Shown here one piece after another: positions 22,414-37,674 of a stretch of DNA of 64,000 nt (position 1 is the stretch's first letter; the number at the start of each line of letters is the position of its first letter). The translations under genes and the position numbers were made by a program. Under the pieces are notes generated by a model, which saw only the letters and a program-made list of their open reading frames with translations, did not search any database and was not told the origin of the DNA. Source of the stretch: Streptomyces rubrogriseus (GTDB lineage Bacteria; Actinomycetota; Actinomycetes; Streptomycetales; Streptomycetaceae); the NCBI RefSeq assembly GCF_027947575.1, contig NZ_CP116256.1, positions 7,130,001 to 7,194,000 of the forward strand, in the 5' to 3' direction.

Positions 22414-23592
22414 TCAGTAGACGGGCTTCTCCGGCTCGATCTGGTTGACCCAGCCGATCACGCCGCCGCCGACGTGGACGGCGTCCGAGAAGCCGGCGGA
22501 CTTGAGGACCGCGAGGACTTCCGCACTGCGGACACCCGTCTTGCAATTCAAGACGATCTTCTTGTCCTGCGGGAGGTTCTCGAGGGCCGAACCCATGAGG
22601 AACTCGTTCTTCGGGATCAGCCGGGCGCCCGGGATGGAGACGATCTCGAACTCGTTCGGCTCGCGGACGTCGATGAGCTCGATGTTCTCACCGTCGTCGA
22701 TCCACTCCTTGAGCTGCTTGGGAGTGATCGTGGAGTCGGCGGCGGCCGCCTGGGCCTCCTCGGACACGACGCCGCAGAAGGCCTCGTAGTCGATGAGCTC
22801 GGTGACGGTCGGGTTCTCGCCGCAGACCGCACAGTTGGGGTCCTTGCGGACCTTGACCTGGCGGTAGGTCATCTCCAGGGCGTCGTAGATCATCAGGCGG
22901 CCGACCAGCGGCTCGCCGATGCCCTGGAGGAGCTTGATGGCCTCGTTGGTCTGGATGGAGCCGATGGAGGCGCACAGCACGCCCAGGACGCCGCCCTCGG
23001 CGCAGGACGGGACCATGCCGGGGGGCGGGGGCTCCGGGTAGAGGCAGCGGTAGCAGGGCCCGTGCTCGGACCAGAAGACGGAGGCCTGGCCGTCGAAGCG
23101 GTAGATCGAACCCCAGACGTAGGGCTTGTTCAGCAGCACGCAGGCGTCGTTGACCAGGTAGCGGGTCGCGAAGTTGTCGGTGCCGTCGACGATCAGGTCG
23201 TACTGGCTGAAGATGTCCATCACGTTGTCGGCCTCGAGCCGCTCCTGGTGAAGGATCACCTCCACCAGCGGGTTGATGCCCTGGATGGTGTCACGGGCGG
23301 ACTCGGCCTTGGGCCGGCCGATGTCGGCCTGGCTGTGGATGACCTGCCGCTGCAGGTTCGACTCGTCGACCTCGTCGAACTCGATGATGCCGAGCGTGCC
23401 GACACCGGCTGCCGCCAGGTACATCAGGGTCGGCGAACCGAGGCCGCCCGCGCCCACGGCGAGCACCTTGGCGTTCTTCAGCCGCTTCTGCCCGTCCATC
23501 CCCACATCGGGGATGATCAGGTGGCGGGAGTACCTGCGGACCTCGTCTACGGTGAGCTCGGCGGCCGGCTCGACCAGGGGTGGCAGCGACAC
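22414..23592 (-). CDS. moeZ: adenylyltransferase/sulfurtransferase MoeZ (ThiF plus rhodanese)
   Basis: 392 residues. An N-terminal ThiF/MoeB ATP-binding fold (GAGGLGSP, DGTDNFATRYLVND) is followed by a zinc site of CYRC and CAVC and a C-terminal rhodanese domain with active-site Cys in NCKTGVRS. MoeZ adenylates and thiocarboxylates sulfur-carrier proteins for molybdopterin, thiamine, cysteine and thio-sugar pathways. GTG 23592 has GGAG 6-7 nt upstream. It lies 63 bp after the spherulin-like gene on the same strand and may be partly cotranscribed. Confidence 0.93.
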   Translation of the reverse strand: MSLPPLVEPAAELTVDEVRRYSRHLIIPDVGMDGQKRLKNAKVLAVGAGGLGSPTLMYLAAAGVGTLGIIEFDEVDESNLQRQVIHSQADIGRPKAESARDTIQGINPLVEVILHQERLEADNVMDIFSQYDLIVDGTDNFATRYLVNDACVLLNKPYVWGSIYRFDGQASVFWSEHGPCYRCLYPEPPPPGMVPSCAEGGVLGVLCASIGSIQTNEAIKLLQGIGEPLVGRLMIYDALEMTYRQVKVRKDPNCAVCGENPTVTELIDYEAFCGVVSEEAQAAAADSTITPKQLKEWIDDGENIELIDVREPNEFEIVSIPGARLIPKNEFLMGSALENLPQDKKIVLNCKTGVRSAEVLAVLKSAGFSDAVHVGGGVIGWVNQIEPEKPVY

Positions 23593-23655
23593 GGGGACTC
23601 CGTTGGTCGGTCAGTAATTACGGTTGTTCTCCAAGTAACACTGCCATGGCCTTTT

Positions 23656-24405
23656 TCATTCCGAGACACCCGTCCCGACCCGCGAGACGATTTCGTCCCA
23701 GTAACCGGGCATCGTCTCCCAGGGGTCGGTCCGGCCGCCGTGATCCGTGCGGTCGGTGAAGCAGATCGTCGCGGCCCCCTGCCAACGGGCGATGCGCAGC
23801 GCTTCCTCCAGGTGCCCGCGCGGCAGGCCGTGCACGAAGTGGCAGAAGCGCTCGGGCGGATAGTCCGCGCTCCACTCGGCCGCCTGGGACCAGCGGTAGT
23901 CGGCCCAGGTGCCCGAGAAGGTGACGAGCTGGTCGGCGTTCTCGGCGTAGCCCGGGCAGGGGTGGGTGCCGTGACCGAGGACGATGTGGGCATCGTCACG
24001 GACCGCCCGCAGGGTGGTGACCGTACGGCGGACCTCGGGGAGGGCGGCCCGGTCGGAGGGGCAGTGGGCGAGGAGGAACCCGTCGACCTGGTACCAGTCG
24101 AGGTATCGGCGGGCGTCGGAGATCTGCTCGCCGAGGCTGCGGGCTCCGTACGCGGCGTCGAGGTGGCCGAGGACGCGGATGCCCGCGTTGCGCAGGCGGC
24201 CGGCGGCCTCCAGGCATCGCGGGTCGGGGTGCGCACCGGGTCCGTCGGCGATGTTGAGGACGACCCAGTGCAGCGGGGTGCCGGGGCAGGTGAGGCCGGC
24301 CCACTCGTCGGGGGCGACGAGGGGGTGGGCCAGCCCCGGGACACCGAGGCCGGTGTGGACGCCGGTGCTCGCGACGCCTGCTTTGGTGCTGGTCAGATAC
24401 GACAT
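23656..24405 (-). CDS. spherulin-4 family protein (Sph3/GH135-like fold), apparently cytoplasmic
   Basis: A 249-residue TIM-barrel protein of the spherulation-specific family 4 type. Conserved blocks are HWVVLNIADGPG, RVLGHLDAAYGARS, DWYQVDGFLLAHCP and the terminal MPGYWDEI. Fungal Sph3 (GH135) cuts galactosaminogalactan. Two oddities: there is no signal peptide, and the segment that usually holds acidic catalytic residues (DGxFxDE type) reads DGFLLAHCP. It may be a binding or regulatory relic, or use other residues. Its start overlaps the epimerase end by 13 bp, so they are coupled. Confidence 0.75.
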   Translation of the reverse strand: MSYLTSTKAGVASTGVHTGLGVPGLAHPLVAPDEWAGLTCPGTPLHWVVLNIADGPGAHPDPRCLEAAGRLRNAGIRVLGHLDAAYGARSLGEQISDARRYLDWYQVDGFLLAHCPSDRAALPEVRRTVTTLRAVRDDAHIVLGHGTHPCPGYAENADQLVTFSGTWADYRWSQAAEWSADYPPERFCHFVHGLPRGHLEEALRIARWQGAATICFTDRTDHGGRTDPWETMPGYWDEIVSRVGTGVSE

Positions 24406-25451
24406 GCCGCCTCCATCCAGATGTCGGCGAGGGACTCTTCGAGGGCGATCCGGGGCCGCCAGCCGAGCCGGTCGCGTGCGGTGCGCACATCGGCCTGCTG
24501 CCAGCTGCCGCAGCCGTCGGGGTACGGGTGCGGGGCCGGGGTCGCGTGCTCGGGGTCGGCGCGCTCGCCGCGGCTTTGCAGGGGGTCCGGGCGGTGATGA
24601 CCGAGGGCGTCGCTCCGGTGGTGACCGAGGGCGTCGACACGATGGCCGAGGGACTCGGTACGGGGGTGGCCGATCGTGGGCCGCAGCGCGCCGGGGGGGC
24701 CGTCGAGTTCGTGCAGGGCACCGCCGTAGCCGGCGACCCTGGCGAGGGTGGCGGCGGCGTCGCGCAGCCGGACGGCGCGGCCGGAGCCGATGTTGATGAC
24801 GCCCTGCGCGGCGGAGAGCGAGGCGGCGTGCACCGCTCGCGCGACGTCCCGGACGTCGACGAAGTCCCGCTGGGCGCCCAGGCCGCCGAGCCGGAGTTCG
24901 CCGTCGCCGGACTGCATCGCGCGGCGCATGGCCTCGGCGAGCCTGCCCAGCGGGGAGCCGGCGGGCGTACCGGGCCCCGCGGGCGAGAAGACCCGCAGCA
25001 CGACGGCGTCCAGACCGGAGCCGAGGACGAGCTCGGTCGCGGCGAGCTTGCTGACGCCGTAGGGACCGCCGGGGCGGGGGACGGCGTCCTCCGCGGTCGA
25101 GGAACCGGGCTGGCTGGGTCCGTACTCCGCGCTGCAGCCGACCTGCACCAGGCGGGCGCCGCAGCCGCTGCGGCGCAGGGCCTCGCAGACGGTCGCGACG
25201 GCGACGGTGTTGTGCCGGGTGAGTTCGCGGGCACCGCCCCGGGTCGCGCCCGCGCAGTTGACGACCACTCCGGGATGGACCGCGTCCAGGAAGCGGGTGA
25301 GGGCGCCCGGGCTACCGGTGGCGAGGTCGAAGCGGACGTCGGCGTCGTCACCGCGGCCGAGGGCGGTGAGCTGGACGGCGGGGTCGGCGAGCAGACGGTC
25401 GGCGACGAAGCGGCCGATGTAGCCGTTGGCTCCGATCAGCAGGACTCTCAT
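24393..25451 (-). CDS. NAD-dependent sugar-nucleotide epimerase/dehydratase (extended SDR)
   Basis: 352 residues with the Rossmann motif IGANGYIG at the N-terminus, SAEYGPS in place of the TSxxVYG block, and catalytic YGVSK (YxxxK). This is the GalE/RmlD-like fold, acting on nucleotide sugars in the cytoplasm. Residues about 260-285 are an inserted low-complexity LGHHRxDA repeat coded by 24-bp DNA repeats. ATG 25451 follows GGGAG 8 nt away. It overlaps the spherulin-like gene and lies 111 bp after the membrane protein gene. Confidence 0.88.
   Translation of the reverse strand: MRVLLIGANGYIGRFVADRLLADPAVQLTALGRGDDADVRFDLATGSPGALTRFLDAVHPGVVVNCAGATRGGARELTRHNTVAVATVCEALRRSGCGARLVQVGCSAEYGPSQPGSSTAEDAVPRPGGPYGVSKLAATELVLGSGLDAVVLRVFSPAGPGTPAGSPLGRLAEAMRRAMQSGDGELRLGGLGAQRDFVDVRDVARAVHAASLSAAQGVINIGSGRAVRLRDAAATLARVAGYGGALHELDGPPGALRPTIGHPRTESLGHRVDALGHHRSDALGHHRPDPLQSRGERADPEHATPAPHPYPDGCGSWQQADVRTARDRLGWRPRIALEESLADIWMEAACRI
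24593..24662. repeat. 24-bp tandem repeats inside the epimerase gene
   Basis: Units 24593-24616 and 24617-24640, plus a degenerate third to about 24662. They code for reiterations of LGHHRxDA. The reading frame is preserved because 24 is a multiple of 3. Confidence 0.75.
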
Positions 25452-25562
25452 CGGGCGGCTCCCGGTGCCGAGGCGTCGGGTCGGGAGGTGGTCATCTGGG
25501 GGCTCCTTCAGGGGGTGATGCGAGGGTGTTGCGGACGGTTGAGGGGCTGTCCGTGTGCGCGC

Positions 25563-26807
25563 TCACCGCGTTCGCTCCGTCGAAGCGTGGGCCGAGGCCC
25601 TGGTCAGGCGACGGCACGCGTGGACGAGGAGGGTGAGGGCGCCGATGCCGCAGGCGGCCGTCGGGACACCGGCCGGGCCGCAGGCGGCGACGAGTGCCTC
25701 CACGGGGGCGGACAGGAAGCCGCAGCCGGGGAGGCGGCCGGCGAAGACCGTGGCCAGGGCGGCCGCCTCCGCCGCGGCCGTGGCGGTGAGGACGAGCGGA
25801 CCGGCGTGGGTGTGGCCGTGCACGCCGAGCAGCCGGGCGAGCAGCAACAGGGCGCCCAGACTGAGGCCCTGGGACCAGTAGGCGGGTTCGCCGAGCACGG
25901 CGCCGGTCAGCGTGAGCAGAGCCGACAGGGCTCCCAGGTACAGGGCGAACGTGCCGAGCAGCAGGGGGCGCACGGAGGCGGAGAAGTCGGTGAGACCCCG
26001 GCTGGACGACAGCTTGCGGCGGGCACCCGCGGCGAAGAGGTGGGCGCAGCCGGCTGCGGGCGCGTAGGACAGCGTGAGCGCCAGGACGGGGGCGAGGGTG
26101 ACGGGCCACGCCCCGTCGGGGGAGCCGTCCGGGAGGCCGTCGGGGCCGCCGCTGACCGCGGTCCGCAGGAGCCCGTCGCCGAGGAGGGCATAGCCGAGGA
26201 GCCAGCAGGTCCAGGTGCTGGTGGTGCGCGTCGCGGCGCTCAGCGGCCCGCGGCGCAGTGCCGCGCCCAGGGCCAGGCTCACCGCGAGGACTGCGACGGC
26301 GGCCGTGATCAGGCGCGGCCTGCCGTCGGTCAGGCGCAGTCCGGCCACGGCGGCGGCGCACAGCACGCCGGGCATCAGGGCGAGGACGAATCCGGCGGCG
26401 CGGGGCCCGACCGGCCGGGGCGCCGGCCCGTCCTCGGGGCGTGCGGGGGTGTCGCCGTCGCGCGGGACCCGGGCGTACATCTCCTCCGCGAGGGAGAAGA
26501 CGTCCCGGTGGCGGAAGCGTGCGGCGGTCCGGTCGGTGACGCCGTGCGCCTCCAGGCCCGCCGCGATCTCCAGCGGGTCCACGGCACGTTCGCACAGTTC
26601 GCGGTGCCGGTGCAGCAGCCCTTTCACCGGGTCCGCGGCGGAGCGGCGGACTGCGGACGCGGGCGGCGACTGCCTGCCGCCGCGGCCCGCCCGGCCGGCG
26701 TCTTCACCACCGACGTCTTCGCCACTGACGTCTTCACCATCAACGCCTTCGCGAGGGCCCGGGCCGCGCGGGGTCTCGGGCCGGTCCAGTTCGCCGAGGC
26801 CGCTCAT
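25563..26807 (-). CDS. multi-pass integral membrane protein coupled to the PelF-like transferase
   Basis: 414 residues. The Gly/Asp/Glu-rich N-terminus (about 1-55) includes short acidic repeats (EDVSGEDVGGEDAG). A small helical segment follows (CERAVDPLEIAAGLEAHGVTD), then 8-9 hydrophobic segments to the end. I do not recognise a named family with certainty. Its ATG overlaps the glycosyltransferase stop as ATGA (26804-26807), so the two are translationally coupled, as PelF and the membrane protein PelG are in Pel operons. A role in glycan export or as membrane anchor for the transferase is inferred. Confidence 0.8.
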   Translation of the reverse strand: MSGLGELDRPETPRGPGPREGVDGEDVSGEDVGGEDAGRAGRGGRQSPPASAVRRSAADPVKGLLHRHRELCERAVDPLEIAAGLEAHGVTDRTAARFRHRDVFSLAEEMYARVPRDGDTPARPEDGPAPRPVGPRAAGFVLALMPGVLCAAAVAGLRLTDGRPRLITAAVAVLAVSLALGAALRRGPLSAATRTTSTWTCWLLGYALLGDGLLRTAVSGGPDGLPDGSPDGAWPVTLAPVLALTLSYAPAAGCAHLFAAGARRKLSSSRGLTDFSASVRPLLLGTFALYLGALSALLTLTGAVLGEPAYWSQGLSLGALLLLARLLGVHGHTHAGPLVLTATAAAEAAALATVFAGRLPGCGFLSAPVEALVAACGPAGVPTAACGIGALTLLVHACRRLTRASAHASTERTR

Positions 26808-28552
26808 CGGGACGCTCCCTCGGCCGCCGAAACCGATGTCGTGGCCCGGACCGGGCCGTCGTCCGTCGCCCAGCCGGGACCGGTGCGGACCGCGCCGGGA
26901 CCACCCCGGGCAGCGACCCGGGCCGTGGCGTCGCTCCAGCGACCGGGGACGTGGGCCTCGGCGGGGACGCCGAAGGGCAGGGGTTCGCCGGCGCCGTCGA
27001 GGACGACGCGGCGTACCGGTGTACGAGAGAGGATCTCCAGGTAAATGCCGTGAAATGCCGTGATGTTCTGCTCGACGGTGAACAGCTCCAGTGCGCGGGC
27101 GCGTGCGGCGGCGCCCAGGCGTTCGCGGCGCTCGGGGTCGCGCAACAGCGCGACGCACGCCTCGGCGAGCGCCCGCGGATTGCGCGGGGGCACGACGAGT
27201 CCGGTGCCGCCGATGGCCTCCACCACCGCGCCGACGTCCGTGGACACCGTCGCCCGGCCGCAGAACATGGCCTCGACGAGCCCGGTCGGGAACCCTTCGA
27301 CGACGCTGGAGAGCACCACCAGGGCCCCCGAGGCGTAGGCGTCGGCGCGGGAGGGCAGTTCGGGTCCGCCGGTCTCCTCGAAGGAGACCGGGTTGCGGCC
27401 CACGGCGTGCGGACCGTCGGCCTCGTCCGGGAAGAGCTGCGCCGCCAGTCCCTTGCAGTGGGCCAGGTAGGCGACGCCCTCGGGGCCGGAGGGGGCACCG
27501 ACGATCCTGAGCCGCGAGCCGGGCTCCGCCCTGCGGACCTCCGCGAAGGCGTGCAGCAGGGAGACCAGGTCCTTGGCCGGTTCGACGCGGCCGACCCAGA
27601 CGAGGGTCTGCGGGTCGGCGCACTCCGGGGACTCCCCCGCCTCCGCGAAGGGAGCCGCGTCCATGCCCGGGTGGACCGTGCGCAGTTTGGCGCGGTCGGC
27701 GCCGCAGCGCTCCTGCCAGCGACGGGTATGGGTGTTGCCCGGGGTGATCACGGCCGCGCGCCGGTAGGTCTCGGCGGCCAGCCGACCGTGGAAGGCGGCG
27801 AGCAGCGACCGTATCGCGGGCGAGGAATCGGGTTCCGTGAGGTAGTGCGTCCGCAGCCGCACGCCGTACTCGGTGACGAGCAGCGGCACGTCGCAGAAGT
27901 GCCGGGCGAGCAGGCCCGGGAGGGCGCCGGTGCCTCCGGAGGCCGCGTGGCACAGGTCCACCGAACCGAGGTCGTCGTCCTCGTACCAGTCGAGGGACAG
28001 GGGGCGCAGGGCGCGTTCGAGGCGCGCGGCGACGGCCAGCAGATCGGGAACGCGCGCCTCGCGCGCGGAGCGGTGGGCGCCGGGCGCGCGACAGGCGCGT
28101 TCCAGGGCGCGTACGGCGGTCTCCGAGCGGAGCGCGGTGGGCAGTCCGCCCTCGTCGCGGGCGAGTTCGGCGAGGCCGTACAGCGCACTGGCGAAACGGT
28201 CCGCCTCAAGGGCCGACTGCCCCTCCGGCTCCCCGTCCGCGCTCCTGGACGGATCCCCGGGGGCGGCGCACAGAGCCGTGGCCAACTCGCCGTAGCACTC
28301 GGCGAAGCGCCGGCGCGCGCGCCGTCCGTGGACGATTCCGTCGTCCACGGATTCCCACAGCGGGGCGGTGCGCACCCGGCCGACCTGCGGCGGCAGCGGC
28401 ACCCAGCCCCCGTCCTCCTCGCGCTCGCTGCGGCTGAGCGCGTAGACGTCGAACTCGTGGTGCTCCAGGCCGCGCACGAGCCGGTCGCACCAGAGCCCGG
28501 CCTCACCGCTCACATACGGATAGCCACCCTCCGTAAGCAGTCCGATGCGCAC
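26804..28552 (-). CDS. PelF-like glycosyltransferase (GT4 family, DUF3492-type N-terminus)
   Basis: 582 residues. It opens RIGLLTEGGYPYVSGEAG, closely resembling the PelF N-terminus, followed by a long insert and LLVTEYGVRLRTHYL (PelF: TEHGIYxRER). The C-terminal GT-B half has WVGRVEPAKDL, the VVLSSVVEGFPTGLVEAM donor-site motif with Glu, and TDVGAVVEAIG. PelF polymerises UDP-GalNAc/GlcNAc into Pel polysaccharide in the cytoplasm; the substrate here is unknown. I chose the GTG at 28552 because family similarity starts there; a frame start at 28657 would lie inside a hairpin. Confidence 0.85.
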   Translation of the reverse strand: MRIGLLTEGGYPYVSGEAGLWCDRLVRGLEHHEFDVYALSRSEREEDGGWVPLPPQVGRVRTAPLWESVDDGIVHGRRARRRFAECYGELATALCAAPGDPSRSADGEPEGQSALEADRFASALYGLAELARDEGGLPTALRSETAVRALERACRAPGAHRSAREARVPDLLAVAARLERALRPLSLDWYEDDDLGSVDLCHAASGGTGALPGLLARHFCDVPLLVTEYGVRLRTHYLTEPDSSPAIRSLLAAFHGRLAAETYRRAAVITPGNTHTRRWQERCGADRAKLRTVHPGMDAAPFAEAGESPECADPQTLVWVGRVEPAKDLVSLLHAFAEVRRAEPGSRLRIVGAPSGPEGVAYLAHCKGLAAQLFPDEADGPHAVGRNPVSFEETGGPELPSRADAYASGALVVLSSVVEGFPTGLVEAMFCGRATVSTDVGAVVEAIGGTGLVVPPRNPRALAEACVALLRDPERRERLGAAARARALELFTVEQNITAFHGIYLEILSRTPVRRVVLDGAGEPLPFGVPAEAHVPGRWSDATARVAARGGPGAVRTGPGWATDDGPVRATTSVSAAEGASR

Positions 28553-28632
28553 GCGCGCACCCCCGATCTCCCGTTTGGGGAGCCGCCGTTGGCCCGGCGG
28601 CTCGCAGCGGGACGAACGTATGCGGACAAGGA

Positions 28633-28666
28633 GGTGGCGCGATGGACGGTTGTCCATCGCGCCACC
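28633..28666. terminator. perfect 15-bp inverted repeat upstream of the PelF-like gene
   Basis: 28633-28647 pairs exactly with 28652-28666, 4-nt loop. On the minus strand it lies after DUF3152 and 81 nt before the transferase start. It could terminate the upstream unit or act as an attenuator in the transferase leader. Confidence 0.6.
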
Positions 28667-28685
28667 AAAAGGGGTGAACGGTCGT

Positions 28686-28710
28686 AACTTTCCCGTGCGA
28701 GGCGCGTTCC
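28686..28710 (-). promoter_or_regulatory. possible ECF-sigma promoter of the PelF-like operon
   Basis: On the minus strand GGAAC (28706-28710) is followed after 17 bp by GTT (28686-28688), the pattern used by stress ECF sigma factors such as SigE/SigR types. No good -10/-35 of the primary sigma factor is seen in this 214-bp gap. If it is used, the transcript would start upstream of the hairpin. Confidence 0.35.
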
Positions 28711-28766
28711 GTCGCGCTAAGAGATCAATCGGTCACCACGTGTGATGCGCGGGCCCGAACTGGCCG

Positions 28767-30452
28767 TCAGCCGTTCGGATAGGCCCAGGCGTTGGGGCGG
28801 CAGTCGATTCCGTCGTGGTCGACGAATTTCGTCTGCTGTTGCATGACCGGGGCGAGTTCGCCGTCCTTGTCGCAGGTGACGTGGTTGTAGCCGATGCGGT
28901 GACCGACCTCGTGGTTGATCAGCATCTGCCGGTACGCGTGGATCGCGTCGCCGTACGGCGCGGCGCCCTGGGCCCAGCGGTAGGCGTTGATCATCACGCG
29001 CTGGGTGGCGGCCGAGTCGCAGGAGACGTTGTCCTCGGTGGTGTCCAGGCCCGACTTGGCGCACCACTCGGCGGTGGTGCCGGGGCTGGCCAGTGTGATG
29101 ACGAAGTCCGGCTGGCCCGATTCGACGCGCTCGAAGGTACGGGCGCCGTTGTGGGCCCAGCTCCGGTCGTCGTTGAGGGTCTTCTGCACAGCCTCCGCGA
29201 AGAGTCCGCCGTCGAGGCCGAGCCCCTGCTCCACGTCGATGCGGTAGGTGTACTTCTGCCCCTTCCCGGTCCCCTTGGCGATGCCCGGGACCGCGTCGAA
29301 CTTCCCGGAGGCCTTGAGGGTGGCACCCAGCGGGTAGGTCTTGCCCATCTTCTGCTCGTACGTCAGCGGTTTCGCGGAGGCGGACGCGGAGGGCGTCGGC
29401 CGTTCGTCGTCCCGTGACGCCGGGTCGTGGGCACCGCGGGCCTGGTCGGTGGCGGACTGCGCGCGCATGTCGCTCCCGTCCGACCCGTCGGCGACCTGAC
29501 CGGCCACGACGACGGCCAGCACGGTGGTGACGGCGGCCGCCGCGATACCGGTGAAGGTCCGGCCCCTGGCCCCCTTGACCGGTGCGGGTTCGCCCGTGGG
29601 CGGCTCGTCGTCGGCGTCCGCCTCGGCACCACCGGGGATGCCGCCGCCTCCGGAGGCGCCCCCGTCCGCGGCGCTCCAGTCGGTGACGGAGGCGTACGGG
29701 TCGGCGGGCCGGGCCGCACCGGGGGTACGTCCGCGTGGGCGGACCGCGAAGACGTCGCCGTCCGCGCCGAAGGCGTCCAGGTAGTCCTGCCGCGGCCCCT
29801 CCCCCGGCGCCTGCCGCTGCCTCGGAAAGGGCGAGGCCGGTCCGGAGGGCGAGACCGGTCCGGAGGGCGAAGGCGGCGCGAAGGACGCGGGGGCCCCGTT
29901 GCGCGGTCCCGTCACCGAGCCGTACCCGTCACCGGGCCGCCCGCCCGGCTCGCCCCAGCCTCCGCCGGGTTCCCGCTGCTCGGGGTGACCGCCCCGGACC
30001 CGCGGCACACCGTGCGCCGGGGTGCCGTCGGAGAACCTGGGAACGCCGCGCGCCGGAGTGCCGTCGGGGAACCCGGGGACGCCGTGCGCGGGCGTGCCGT
30101 CCGCCGTCCGCGGAAAACCGTGGGCCGGCGTCTCGTCGCCGGGAAATCGCGCCCCCGGGGCGGGACCCGGGCCCCGCCCCGGACCGGGACCGGGGCCCGC
30201 GTACCCCTGGCGGGCACCCGGGACGTCACCCGGAGCCGCCCCGCGTGGCGCCGCCCCCTCGCCCCCCTGTGACTGGTGGGGCCACTGCGCCTGATGAGGT
30301 CCCTGCGGCCGGTACGGCCCCTGTGGCTCCTGCGACGGCCCGTCCGTCCGGCGCGGGTCGGGCCGGACGGCCCGGCTCTCACGTGCGCGTGCTGCGGCGG
30401 TGTCCGCGGCGTCTGCCTTGGGAGCGGGCCCGCGGCGGCTGTGGCGTCCCAC
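28767..30452 (-). CDS. membrane-anchored DUF3152 zinc-protease-like protein
   Basis: 561 residues. A Pro/Gly-rich disordered cytoplasmic part (about 1-300) includes four 12-residue repeats. One TM segment follows (TGIAAAAVTTVLAVVVAG), then the extracytoplasmic DUF3152 domain. That domain contains NHEVGHRIGYNH, a full HExxHxxGxxH zinc motif, followed by APVMQQQ, which could be a metzincin Met-turn. Four or more Cys may form disulfides. GTG 30452 follows GAGG, 8 bp after the hydrolase stop, so the two form an operon. Family function unknown; extracytoplasmic metalloprotease activity is inferred. Confidence 0.85.
   Translation of the reverse strand: MGRHSRRGPAPKADAADTAAARARESRAVRPDPRRTDGPSQEPQGPYRPQGPHQAQWPHQSQGGEGAAPRGAAPGDVPGARQGYAGPGPGPGRGPGPAPGARFPGDETPAHGFPRTADGTPAHGVPGFPDGTPARGVPRFSDGTPAHGVPRVRGGHPEQREPGGGWGEPGGRPGDGYGSVTGPRNGAPASFAPPSPSGPVSPSGPASPFPRQRQAPGEGPRQDYLDAFGADGDVFAVRPRGRTPGAARPADPYASVTDWSAADGGASGGGGIPGGAEADADDEPPTGEPAPVKGARGRTFTGIAAAAVTTVLAVVVAGQVADGSDGSDMRAQSATDQARGAHDPASRDDERPTPSASASAKPLTYEQKMGKTYPLGATLKASGKFDAVPGIAKGTGKGQKYTYRIDVEQGLGLDGGLFAEAVQKTLNDDRSWAHNGARTFERVESGQPDFVITLASPGTTAEWCAKSGLDTTEDNVSCDSAATQRVMINAYRWAQGAAPYGDAIHAYRQMLINHEVGHRIGYNHVTCDKDGELAPVMQQQTKFVDHDGIDCRPNAWAYPNG
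29988..30131. repeat. four tandem 36-bp repeats in the DUF3152 gene
   Basis: Units at 29988, 30024, 30060 and 30096, coding TPAHGVPxxxDG reiterations. They lie in the disordered cytoplasmic segment. Confidence 0.85.
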
Positions 30453-34960: not shown

Positions 34961-37674
34961 CTACGACGTTCCGATCCCTCGGGATCCTCCCCGAGACCGC
35001 CGAAGCCCTCGAAGCCGTCGGCATCACCACTCCCTTCCCGATCCAGGAGCTGACGCTCCCCGTGGCCCTCTCGGGCACGGACGTGATCGGCCAGGCCAAG
35101 ACCGGCACCGGCAAGACGCTGGGCTTCGGCCTCCCGCTCCTCGAGCGCGTCACCGTCCCCGCCGACGTCGAGGCGGGCCGCGCGGCGCCCGAGTCCCTTA
35201 CCGGCGCCCCGCAGGCCCTCGTCGTCGTCCCGACGCGCGAGCTGTGCCAGCAGGTCACCAACGACCTCCTGACCGCCGGCAAGGTCCGCAACGTACGCGT
35301 CCTCGCGATCTACGGCGGCCGCGCCTACGAGCCGCAGGTCGAGGCCCTGAAGAAGGGCGTCGACGTGATCGTCGGCACCCCCGGCCGACTGCTGGACCTC
35401 GCGGGCCAGAAGAAGCTGAGCCTCAAGCACATCAAGAGCCTGGTCCTGGACGAGGCCGACGAGATGCTCGACCTGGGCTTCCTGCCCGACGTAGAGAAGA
35501 TCATCAACATGCTGCCGGCCCGGCGTCAGACGATGCTGTTCTCGGCGACCATGCCGGGTGCGGTCATCGGGCTCGCCCGCCGTTACATGTCGCAGCCCAC
35601 CCACATCCGCGCCACCTCGCCGGACGACGAGGGCGCGACGGTCGCGAACACGAAGCAGTTCATCTACCGCGCGCACAACATGGACAAGCCCGAGATGGTG
35701 GCGCGCATACTGCAGGCCGAAGGCCGTGGACTGGCCATGGTCTTCTGCCGCACCAAGCGCACCGCGGCCGACCTCGCCGACCAGCTCAAGCAGCGCGGCT
35801 TCGCCTCCGGCGCGGTCCACGGCGACCTCGGCCAGGGCGCCCGCGAGCAGGCCCTGCGCGCCTTCCGCAACGGCAAGGTGGACGTGCTCGTCTGCACCGA
35901 CGTCGCCGCCCGCGGCATCGACGTCGAGGGCGTGACGCACGTCATCAACTACCAGTCGCCGGAAGAGGAGAAGACGTACCTGCACCGCATCGGCCGCACC
36001 GGCCGCGCGGGCGCGAAGGGTACGGCGATCACGCTGGTCGACTGGGACGACATCCCGCGCTGGCAGCTGATCAACAAGGCGCTGGACCTGGGCTTCAACG
36101 ACCCGCCGGAGACGTACTCCACCTCCCCGCACCTGTACACCGACCTGGGCATCGCCGAGGGCACCAAGGGCGTCCTGCCGCGCTCGGAGCGCACCCGCGC
36201 CGGGCTGGACGCGGAGGAGCTCGAGGACCTGGGCGAGCCGGGCGGCCGCGGTGGCCGCGGGCGTGGCGACCGAGGTGGCCGGGGTGGGCGCGACGACTCG
36301 CGTTCCGGCAACCGCGAGCGCGACCGTTCGTCCGGTACGACGCCGCGCCGCCGCCGTCGGATGCGCGGCGGTGCGCCGGTGGACGCGGAGGCCTCCGTGG
36401 CCCCCGCGGCCGAGGCCGTGACCGGTGGTGCGGCCGACGCGGGCACCGACACCGACAAGGGCCCCCGCACGCTGCGCCGCCGGCGCCGGACGCGGAGCGG
36501 TGAGCCCTCGCGCCGCCAGGAGACCGCCGCGACGCCCGCCGCCGACGGCCCGGCGGCGCAGGCCGCCGAGGACGCCGCGCTCGCGCCTTCCGCGGCTCCG
36601 GTCGTGGAAACGGTGGTGGCCGAATCGGTGGCGGCCCCGGAGGCCGTGGAGGCCCCGGCGAAGCCGCGCCGCCGCACCCGCACCCGCAAGACGGCCGAGA
36701 CCCCGGCCGCCCCGCTGGAGACCGCTCCGACGGCGGCGCCGACGGCCACCGAGGAGTCGATCGTGGCTCCGGCGGTCGTCGAGACCCCGACGGTGGAGGC
36801 TCCCGCCGAGAAGCCGCGCCGCCGCACCCGCAAGGCCACGGCCGCCGAGGCGACGGTCGACACGGCCGAGGGAGCGGCCGAGCCCGCGTCCGAGCCGGCC
36901 GAGACCAAGCCGCGCCGCCGGACCCGCAAGGCGGCCGAGCCCGCCGTGCAGGCTCCGGACGTCGAGGCGGAGACCGAGGTCAAGCCGCGCCGCACGCGGA
37001 AGACGACGGCCACCAAGACGGCCGCCGCCAAGGCGGAAGCCGCCGCCGACACCGCCGAGGCAGCGGAGGCGAAGCCCAAGGCCCGCCGCACCCGCAAGGC
37101 CGCCGAACCGGCCGAGGTCACCGAGGCCGCAGCCGACGTTCCGGCGCAGCCGGAGCAGGCTCCGGAAGCGACCGAGGCCAAGCCGCGCCGGACCCGCAAG
37201 GCGGCCGCCACCAAGACGGCCGCCGCCAAGGCAGAGGCCGCCGCCGACACCGCCGAGGCGACGGAGGCGAAGCCCAAGGCCCGCCGCACCCGCAAGGCCG
37301 CCGAACCGGCGGTGCAGGCCGCTACGGACGCCGAGGCGGAGGCCGAGGCCAAGCCGCGCCGCACCCGCAAGACGGCGGCCACCAAGACGGCCGCCGCCAA
37401 GGCGGAAGCCGCCGCCGACACCGCAGAGGCAGCGGAGGCGAAGCCCAAGGCCCGCCGCACCCGGAAGACGGCCGCGGCCGTCGAGGCCGCCGCCGAGATT
37501 CCGGCACAGGCCTCGCAGGAGCCGGAGGCCGCGCCGCGACGCCGGACCCGTAAGGCCGCGGTTGCCGTCGAGGCGCCCGCGGTGGGAGCCGACACTGCGG
37601 AGGCGAAGCCGAAGGCCCGTCGTACCCGCAAGACGGCCGCCGCCGCGCAGCCCGCGGAGGCCGGCGAGAGCTGA
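34957..37674 (+). CDS. DEAD-box RNA helicase with long basic repeat tail, CTG start
   Basis: 905 residues. The Q-motif region FRSLGILPETAEALEAVGITTPFPIQ is present only if translation starts at CTG 34957. No ATG, GTG or TTG lies in frame between the upstream stop at 34876 and GTG 35062, and the latter would delete the Q motif. Core motifs are AKTGTGKT, PTREL, TPGRLLD, DEAD, SAT and HRIGRTGRAG. From about residue 420 the protein is a disordered Gly/Arg, then Ala/Lys/Arg-rich tail with many KPRRRTRK units, expected to bind RNA. RhlE-like; acts in RNA structure remodelling and ribosome assembly. AGAGG lies 8 nt before the CTG. Confidence 0.9.
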   Translation: MTTTFRSLGILPETAEALEAVGITTPFPIQELTLPVALSGTDVIGQAKTGTGKTLGFGLPLLERVTVPADVEAGRAAPESLTGAPQALVVVPTRELCQQVTNDLLTAGKVRNVRVLAIYGGRAYEPQVEALKKGVDVIVGTPGRLLDLAGQKKLSLKHIKSLVLDEADEMLDLGFLPDVEKIINMLPARRQTMLFSATMPGAVIGLARRYMSQPTHIRATSPDDEGATVANTKQFIYRAHNMDKPEMVARILQAEGRGLAMVFCRTKRTAADLADQLKQRGFASGAVHGDLGQGAREQALRAFRNGKVDVLVCTDVAARGIDVEGVTHVINYQSPEEEKTYLHRIGRTGRAGAKGTAITLVDWDDIPRWQLINKALDLGFNDPPETYSTSPHLYTDLGIAEGTKGVLPRSERTRAGLDAEELEDLGEPGGRGGRGRGDRGGRGGRDDSRSGNRERDRSSGTTPRRRRRMRGGAPVDAEASVAPAAEAVTGGAADAGTDTDKGPRTLRRRRRTRSGEPSRRQETAATPAADGPAAQAAEDAALAPSAAPVVETVVAESVAAPEAVEAPAKPRRRTRTRKTAETPAAPLETAPTAAPTATEESIVAPAVVETPTVEAPAEKPRRRTRKATAAEATVDTAEGAAEPASEPAETKPRRRTRKAAEPAVQAPDVEAETEVKPRRTRKTTATKTAAAKAEAAADTAEAAEAKPKARRTRKAAEPAEVTEAAADVPAQPEQAPEATEAKPRRTRKAAATKTAAAKAEAAADTAEATEAKPKARRTRKAAEPAVQAATDAEAEAEAKPRRTRKTAATKTAAAKAEAAADTAEAAEAKPKARRTRKTAAAVEAAAEIPAQASQEPEAAPRRRTRKAAVAVEAPAVGADTAEAKPKARRTRKTAAAAQPAEAGES
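36982..37500. repeat. long tandem repeats in the helicase tail
   Basis: Three copies, starting at 36982, 37180 and 37351, of a block coding KPRRTRK..ATKTAAAKAEAAADTAEA followed by KPKARRTRK. Spacing is 198 and 171 bp, both in frame. Near-identity at DNA level implies recent duplication or gene conversion. Confidence 0.8.

Follow-up and report, generated by a model that had tools for sequence, protein, structure and literature searches.

What has a block of four packed minus-strand genes, reminiscent of an operon for a polysaccharide of the Pel or galactosaminogalactan (GAG) type, come to do in Streptomyces? The block lies in a 64,000-nucleotide stretch of the Streptomyces rubrogriseus genome (contig NZ_CP116256.1, positions 7,130,001 to 7,194,000; hereafter the window, in whose numbering positions are given). 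It encodes a PelF-type glycosyltransferase composed of DUF3492 and GT4 domains (GT4; 26804..28552, 582 residues, GTG start), a membrane protein (TM; 25563..26807, 414 residues), an extended short-chain dehydrogenase/reductase (SDR; 24393..25451, 352 residues) that is an RMD-like nucleotide-sugar enzyme, and a spherulin-4 fold protein (SPH; 23656..24405, 249 residues). All four genes, which an earlier note on this DNA had described and read as a Pel/galactosaminoglycan-like cluster, are confirmed, including the ATGA shared by the GT4 stop and the TM start (26804..26807) and the 13-bp overlap of SDR and SPH (24393..24405), both on the minus strand, like the codons and the spacer located below; GT4 has a second in-frame start candidate, an ATG at 28657. 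Comparative analysis identifies the block as related to the actinobacterial agd3/Pel-type operon and linked to moeZ across the genus. Its copies at this site (core copies) have an SPH without the acid/base Glu, an SDR with Cys for Ser and a GT4 without the Gly-Gly-Val-Ser (GGVS) loop. The best account, to which we assign a probability of about 0.65, is that an agd3/Pel-type operon, of a kind presumed to make galactosamine-rich surface polymers, has been repurposed for a changed role, its altered genes staying under selection. Our literature searches found no published description of the locus.

The arrangement is conserved across the genus. The SDR query matches 191 of 199 Streptomyces genomes at E ≤ 1e-80 (188 of 194 good assemblies), and the SPH query matches 59 of 61, with two (G001, G028) at paralogue level only. 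From the 59 genomes matching SPH we picked 40 core loci, with protein starts set by alignment and the nearest start codon, and with the masked, disrupted locus L070 included in the counts. SDR, SPH and moeZ are present in all 40, as is GT4 (fragmentary in L052, L056 and L070), and the membrane protein is present in 39, often at partial length. A second set of named loci, the best 80 of 574 matches to the SPH alignment and biased toward close relatives, holds 79 Streptomyces and one entry titled Kitasatospora aureofaciens; it overlaps the other genome set (L199, G022), and the two are not independent. The SDR/SPH spacing is −13 in 39 of 40 fetched and 79 of 80 named loci, moeZ follows the block in all 80 named and 5 further loci, and the spacing between SPH and moeZ is 63 bp in 77 of the 80. 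In the window, this spacer (23593..23655), nearly invariant in sequence, is perhaps a moeZ promoter or leader. The conserved downstream neighbour moeZ (22414..23592, minus strand; adenylyltransferase/sulfurtransferase) scores 754.9 bits against the MoeZ equivalog (cut-off 647), and we do not claim it as a member of the pathway. Given this conservation in Streptomyces, the four-gene arrangement is far beyond chance; in agreement with the earlier note, the block is conserved together, its order and overlap being fixed in nearly all sampled loci.

SPH has the spherulin-4 TIM-barrel fold (Pfam Spherulin4, 70.4 bits, cut-off 30.2). As excerpted, PMC12054363 gives the GH135 catalytic pair as a nucleophile Asp, printed as Asp196, and the acid/base Glu222. 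In the window's SPH, Ala113 (codon 24067..24069) occupies the position of the Sph3 nucleophile Asp, and Ser164 (codon 23914..23916) occupies that of the acid/base Glu222. In alignment with Sph3 (PDB 5c5g, 5d6t), whose nucleophile we take to be Asp166, an acid is found at the acid/base site in none of 41 core copies, none of the 80 named copies and none of 5 further copies, and the site varies among S, A, R, T, Q, C, N and L. The nucleophile Asp has gone in several lineages but persists in 29 of the 41 and 70 of the 80 core copies. In comparison, Asp and Glu are both kept in all 19 other homologues aligned to Sph3 (17 paralogues and two PelG-linked copies), as well as in nine further SPH copies from other genera. 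Inspection by eye of the aligned rows reveals no hydrophobic stretch or signal peptide at the SPH N-terminus. The window's SPH is predicted to be catalytically inactive: the fold assigned to it by the earlier note is confirmed, but an Sph3-like catalytic role is not supported, both catalytic residues being absent.

SDR matches the Pfam family Epimerase (130.5 bits), and its best solved relative is the GDP-6-deoxy-D-lyxo-4-hexulose reductase RMD (PDB 2pk3; 5.5e-21, and 3.4e-23 with a profile). A GalE-type identity was considered and rejected, with 32.7 bits against TIGR01179 (galE; cut-off 262.3) and RMD as the nearest solved structure, so the nucleotide-sugar epimerase of the earlier note survives as an extended SDR with an Epimerase domain but not as GalE. 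SDR differs from RMD at Cys106 (codon 25134..25136), which replaces the catalytic Ser of extended SDRs. Ser occupies this position in the solved relatives 2pk3, 6x3b, 6kv9 and 6wjb and in 15 examined SDR copies without moeZ linkage, while 6wj9, near-identical to 6wjb, has Ala. Core copies have Cys here (40 of 41, all 80 named copies and all 5 further copies), and the residue is invariant in readable rows. The glycine motif for NAD is intact in 41 of 41 core copies, and the Tyr/Lys pair is intact in 40 of 40 readable ones.

The transferase is PelF-like, as the earlier note had it, and is not a trehalose or sucrose synthase. It matches DUF3492 (PF11997; 97.4 bits, cut-off 23.3) and Glyco_trans_1_4 (78.5 bits), scores 95.7 bits against NCBIfam PelF versus 20.6 for TreT and 13.7 for sucrose synthase, and clusters in the tree with GT4s of the PelF type, to the exclusion of seven further GT4s from the genome (support 94). 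The PelF score falls narrowly under the equivalog cut-off of 100, which is passed by the only accessory GT4 tested, that of the divergent paralogous locus L115 (166.6 bits); the window's GT4 is 41–45% identical to the Streptomyces accessory copies. It keeps EX7E (E419/E427), R322 and K327, which are mostly retained across core rows. Where all 18 PelF-type relative rows have the GGVS loop, core rows usually show G-E/D-A/S/G-x, and residues 16-17 of this remodelled glycine loop are Gly-Glu in the window (28502..28507). In three Streptomyces core rows (L064, L065 and L071) the Arg/Lys loop is absent, and given that absence their transferase may be inactive.

The membrane protein consists of a conserved soluble N-terminal domain of about 60 residues followed by about nine predicted membrane helices. 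It has no Pfam family match; a MOP/MATE-like fold is suggested. Profile comparison with hhalign gives a PelG match a probability of 0.15% for the accessory TM profile and 0.45% for the core TM profile, while the core profile matches the accessory, agd3-type one at E 1e-35 over 319 columns.

Codon comparisons show purifying selection on all four genes. The median dN/dS against 15–16 close relatives, every pair including the window sequence, is 0.09 for SDR, 0.19 for GT4, 0.21 for SPH and 0.41 for TM, with 0.15 for moeZ. It is therefore very improbable that the block is an agd3 operon in decay, as the missing partner genes and catalytic residues and the drifting acid/base site might suggest: a relic needs a value near 1, and here SDR is kept in nearly every genome with gene order and overlap fixed. 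SDR is the most conserved of the four proteins, and, in five genomes holding both core and accessory loci, mean identity for core versus accessory is 91.3 versus 74.1% for SDR, 73.1 versus 84.0% for GT4 and 73.5 versus 74.5% for SPH. Constraint thus seems to have shifted from the transferase to SDR. The Cys of SDR would have been chosen and the acid/base site of SPH abandoned, since the former is invariant and the latter drifts. These observations bear also on a non-enzymatic nucleotide-sugar or glycan sensor or adaptor at the membrane, controlling another envelope or developmental process. Three of the four proteins are substituted at otherwise invariant active-site positions under purifying selection, SDR, much more conserved than its accessory copy, holds a Cys that does not drift, and three core rows have no GT4 Arg/Lys loop. 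However, the intact glycine motif and Tyr/Lys of SDR and the mostly intact EX7E would be needless for a pure sensor, and we consider this explanation unlikely.

Where does the block come from? Divergent paralogous loci, with SPH 29–45% identical, occur elsewhere in Streptomyces and in other Actinobacteria. The fuller ones encode, in order, a secreted-looking protein of about 710–780 residues, GT4, TM, a dehydratase (LegB-like in L114, 454.6 bits, cut-off 475), a nucleotidyltransferase, SDR and SPH, and in L123 both Pfam models identify the leading protein as Agd3 (CBM87, 53.5 bits; CE18, 43.5 bits; cut-offs 27.6). In the portion of Bamford et al. 2020 (PMC7229062) drawn on here, bacterial agd3 operons contain a cytoplasmic glycosyltransferase, a multi-span membrane protein and commonly GH114, and those of some Actinobacteria also hold spherulin-4 genes. 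The fuller loci are thus of the kind described in that portion. The window's block resembles these operons in its cytoplasmic glycosyltransferase and multi-span membrane protein, which are related by sequence, but lacks any Agd3, dehydratase, nucleotidyltransferase or GH114 gene, and differs from the agd3-type loci in the altered active sites of SPH, SDR and GT4. As a separate observation, a weakly GH114-like protein (L123:13566-14267; 16.6 bits, cut-off 27) stands in the place of the spherulin gene in L123, where perhaps one galactosaminidase-type barrel has been swapped for another.

Sister genera suggest the order of the changes. We fetched 20 loci from other genera of the family and saw moeZ linkage in 11. 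Three of these, from three genera (L239, L240 and L254), have Ser in SDR and an acidic residue in SPH (D, E and E), and the other eight have Cys in SDR and no acid in SPH, so that the states of the two sites agree in 11 of 11. The Cys rows form one clade of the SDR tree with L254 as sister, and on the GT4 tree the rows linked to moeZ group as a single clade (98) within the PelF-type rows. The GT4 of L254 reads SGPG, GGVS being already gone, so the GT4 loop would have changed before the SDR and SPH sites. No GT4 or TM was seen in L239/L260. In genome G681, from a sister genus, a complete GAG-like operon lies near moeZ (L259:6805-9750 plus L240:247-8886), with GGVS intact: an upstream Agd3-like gene (51% to the L115 type) is followed by PelF-type GT4, TM, dehydratase, nucleotidyltransferase, SDR, SPH and GH114 (275.8 bits, cut-off 27). 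This operon resembles the fungal GAG cluster of Agd3, Ega3/GH114, Sph3/GH135, synthase and epimerase. By parsimony, the ancestral operon at this place would have been complete, as it still is beside moeZ in G681, and genes for the Agd3-like deacetylase, the dehydratase, the nucleotidyltransferase and GH114 would have disappeared from the Streptomyces line.

Several observations weigh against this reading or limit it. The Agd3 Pfam scores are below cut-off in L114 (15.7 of 27.6) and L259 (13.6 and 10.9 of 27.6), and the first genes of L115 and L130 have no Agd3 Pfam match; the Streptomyces-type first gene is thus tied to Agd3 indirectly, through the L259 protein, which matches the L115 type at 51% as well as the Pfam-confirmed Agd3 of L123 at 25% (5e-19). 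In L240, moeZ lies 3.6 kb past SPH with other genes between, making its linkage looser. Of the eight accessory SDR copies, that of L123 has His in place of the triad Lys. Furthermore, the position following the SPH nucleophile, a Glu in Sph3, cannot serve as a marker, because the 17 paralogues have likewise exchanged it, for Gln, Arg, Gly or Cys.

Could the copy in the window still make a polymer? The Pel analogy of the earlier note has its counterpart in galE and PelA-hydrolase-like genes lying beside the Gram-positive pelDEADAFG operon, according to the part of Whitfield et al. 2020 (PMC7112168) used here. The window's block shares a PelF-type GT4 with the operon as presented there, but has no PelG by Pfam or profile comparison, an SDR that is not GalE-like, and a spherulin without the acid/base Glu or a visible signal peptide. 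Full-length PelG is found in 3 of 346 actinobacterial genomes, none of them Streptomyces, with a fragment in a fourth. Two of these also carry, a few kilobases off on the strand opposite PelF/PelG, a spherulin-4 homologue whose catalytic residues are intact and whose N-terminus is signal-like (L092:11381-11941; L093:11266-11826), both of them genomes with full-length PelG. PelG (PF16933) has no match in the window's genome and the TM profiles are unlike PelG, in keeping with the earlier statement that the block has none. An Agd3-like query from L115 finds nothing in this genome, though as a control it matches L259, of another genome, at 51%; no PelD, PelE or PelA deacetylase, for which no dedicated search was run, lies within the four-gene block. 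The genome holds a single spherulin-4 match and one PelF-type glycosyltransferase (3e-89; next GT4 at 4.9e-21), so by these searches no intact copy substitutes for the block.

A surviving capacity for a Pel/GAG-like GalNAc polymer, polymerised by GT4 and served by a spherulin hydrolase of weak or altered activity, is consistent with the kinship to agd3 operons, with the mostly retained EX7E, Arg and Lys and with the nucleophile Asp of most SPH copies, and synthesis may not require the hydrolase. We nevertheless regard it as improbable: PelG, Agd3 and a second PelF-type transferase were not found in the genome, the SPH acid/base acid is in none of the core copies examined, SDR is not GalE-like, and GT4 narrowly misses the PelF cut-off that the accessory GT4 passes and is less conserved than that GT4 in the same genomes. 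The link to Pel and galactosaminoglycan therefore stands as a real evolutionary tie to agd3-type operons, but making and trimming of such a polymer is not what this copy's gene content and residues indicate, even though its GT4 keeps most catalytic residues.

With the SPH catalytic residues lost and the SDR and GT4 active sites altered, the repurposed operon has seemingly been kept for a changed job. Tentatively, the four proteins would now form a glycosylation unit of cytoplasm and membrane. In such a unit, SDR, with its NAD motif and Tyr/Lys intact, would supply a nucleotide sugar, GT4, its EX7E and Arg/Lys mostly intact, would transfer the sugar to a changed acceptor, and the MOP-like membrane protein would move the product. 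SPH, whose gene overlaps that of SDR, would act as a non-catalytic glycan- or enzyme-binding subunit, and nothing in the window locus would trim or deacetylate the product. We somewhat favour this unit, in which the spherulin is a non-catalytic subunit, over a pure sensor and over a Pel-like synthase that still works.

The surroundings of the block include an upstream DUF3152 gene (by Pfam), which contains a 36-bp tandem repeat (29998-30101) encoding a Pro/Gly-rich stretch. Farther away, positions 36964-37287 hold an imperfect 102-bp tandem array of 3.2 copies, within a stretch of very high GC (0.78) and an AT skew of 0.36.

A bolder and rather doubtful extension is that the change took in a whole polysaccharide operon and proceeded step by step at the base of the Streptomyces lineage, yielding a conserved protein set that is partly or wholly non-catalytic. 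Within it, the SPH pseudo-hydrolase and the Cys-bearing SDR would make up a unit that senses glycans or nucleotide sugars and that most Streptomyces would keep for mycelial life. The case warns against annotating the window's SPH gene as a Pel/GAG hydrolase. The locus is near-universal in a heavily studied genus and offers a readable case of enzymes in a catalytic operon changing at several active sites while selection continued. For comparison there are the complete and apparently ancestral operon next to moeZ in a sister genus and, within some of the same genomes, paralogues whose residues are intact.

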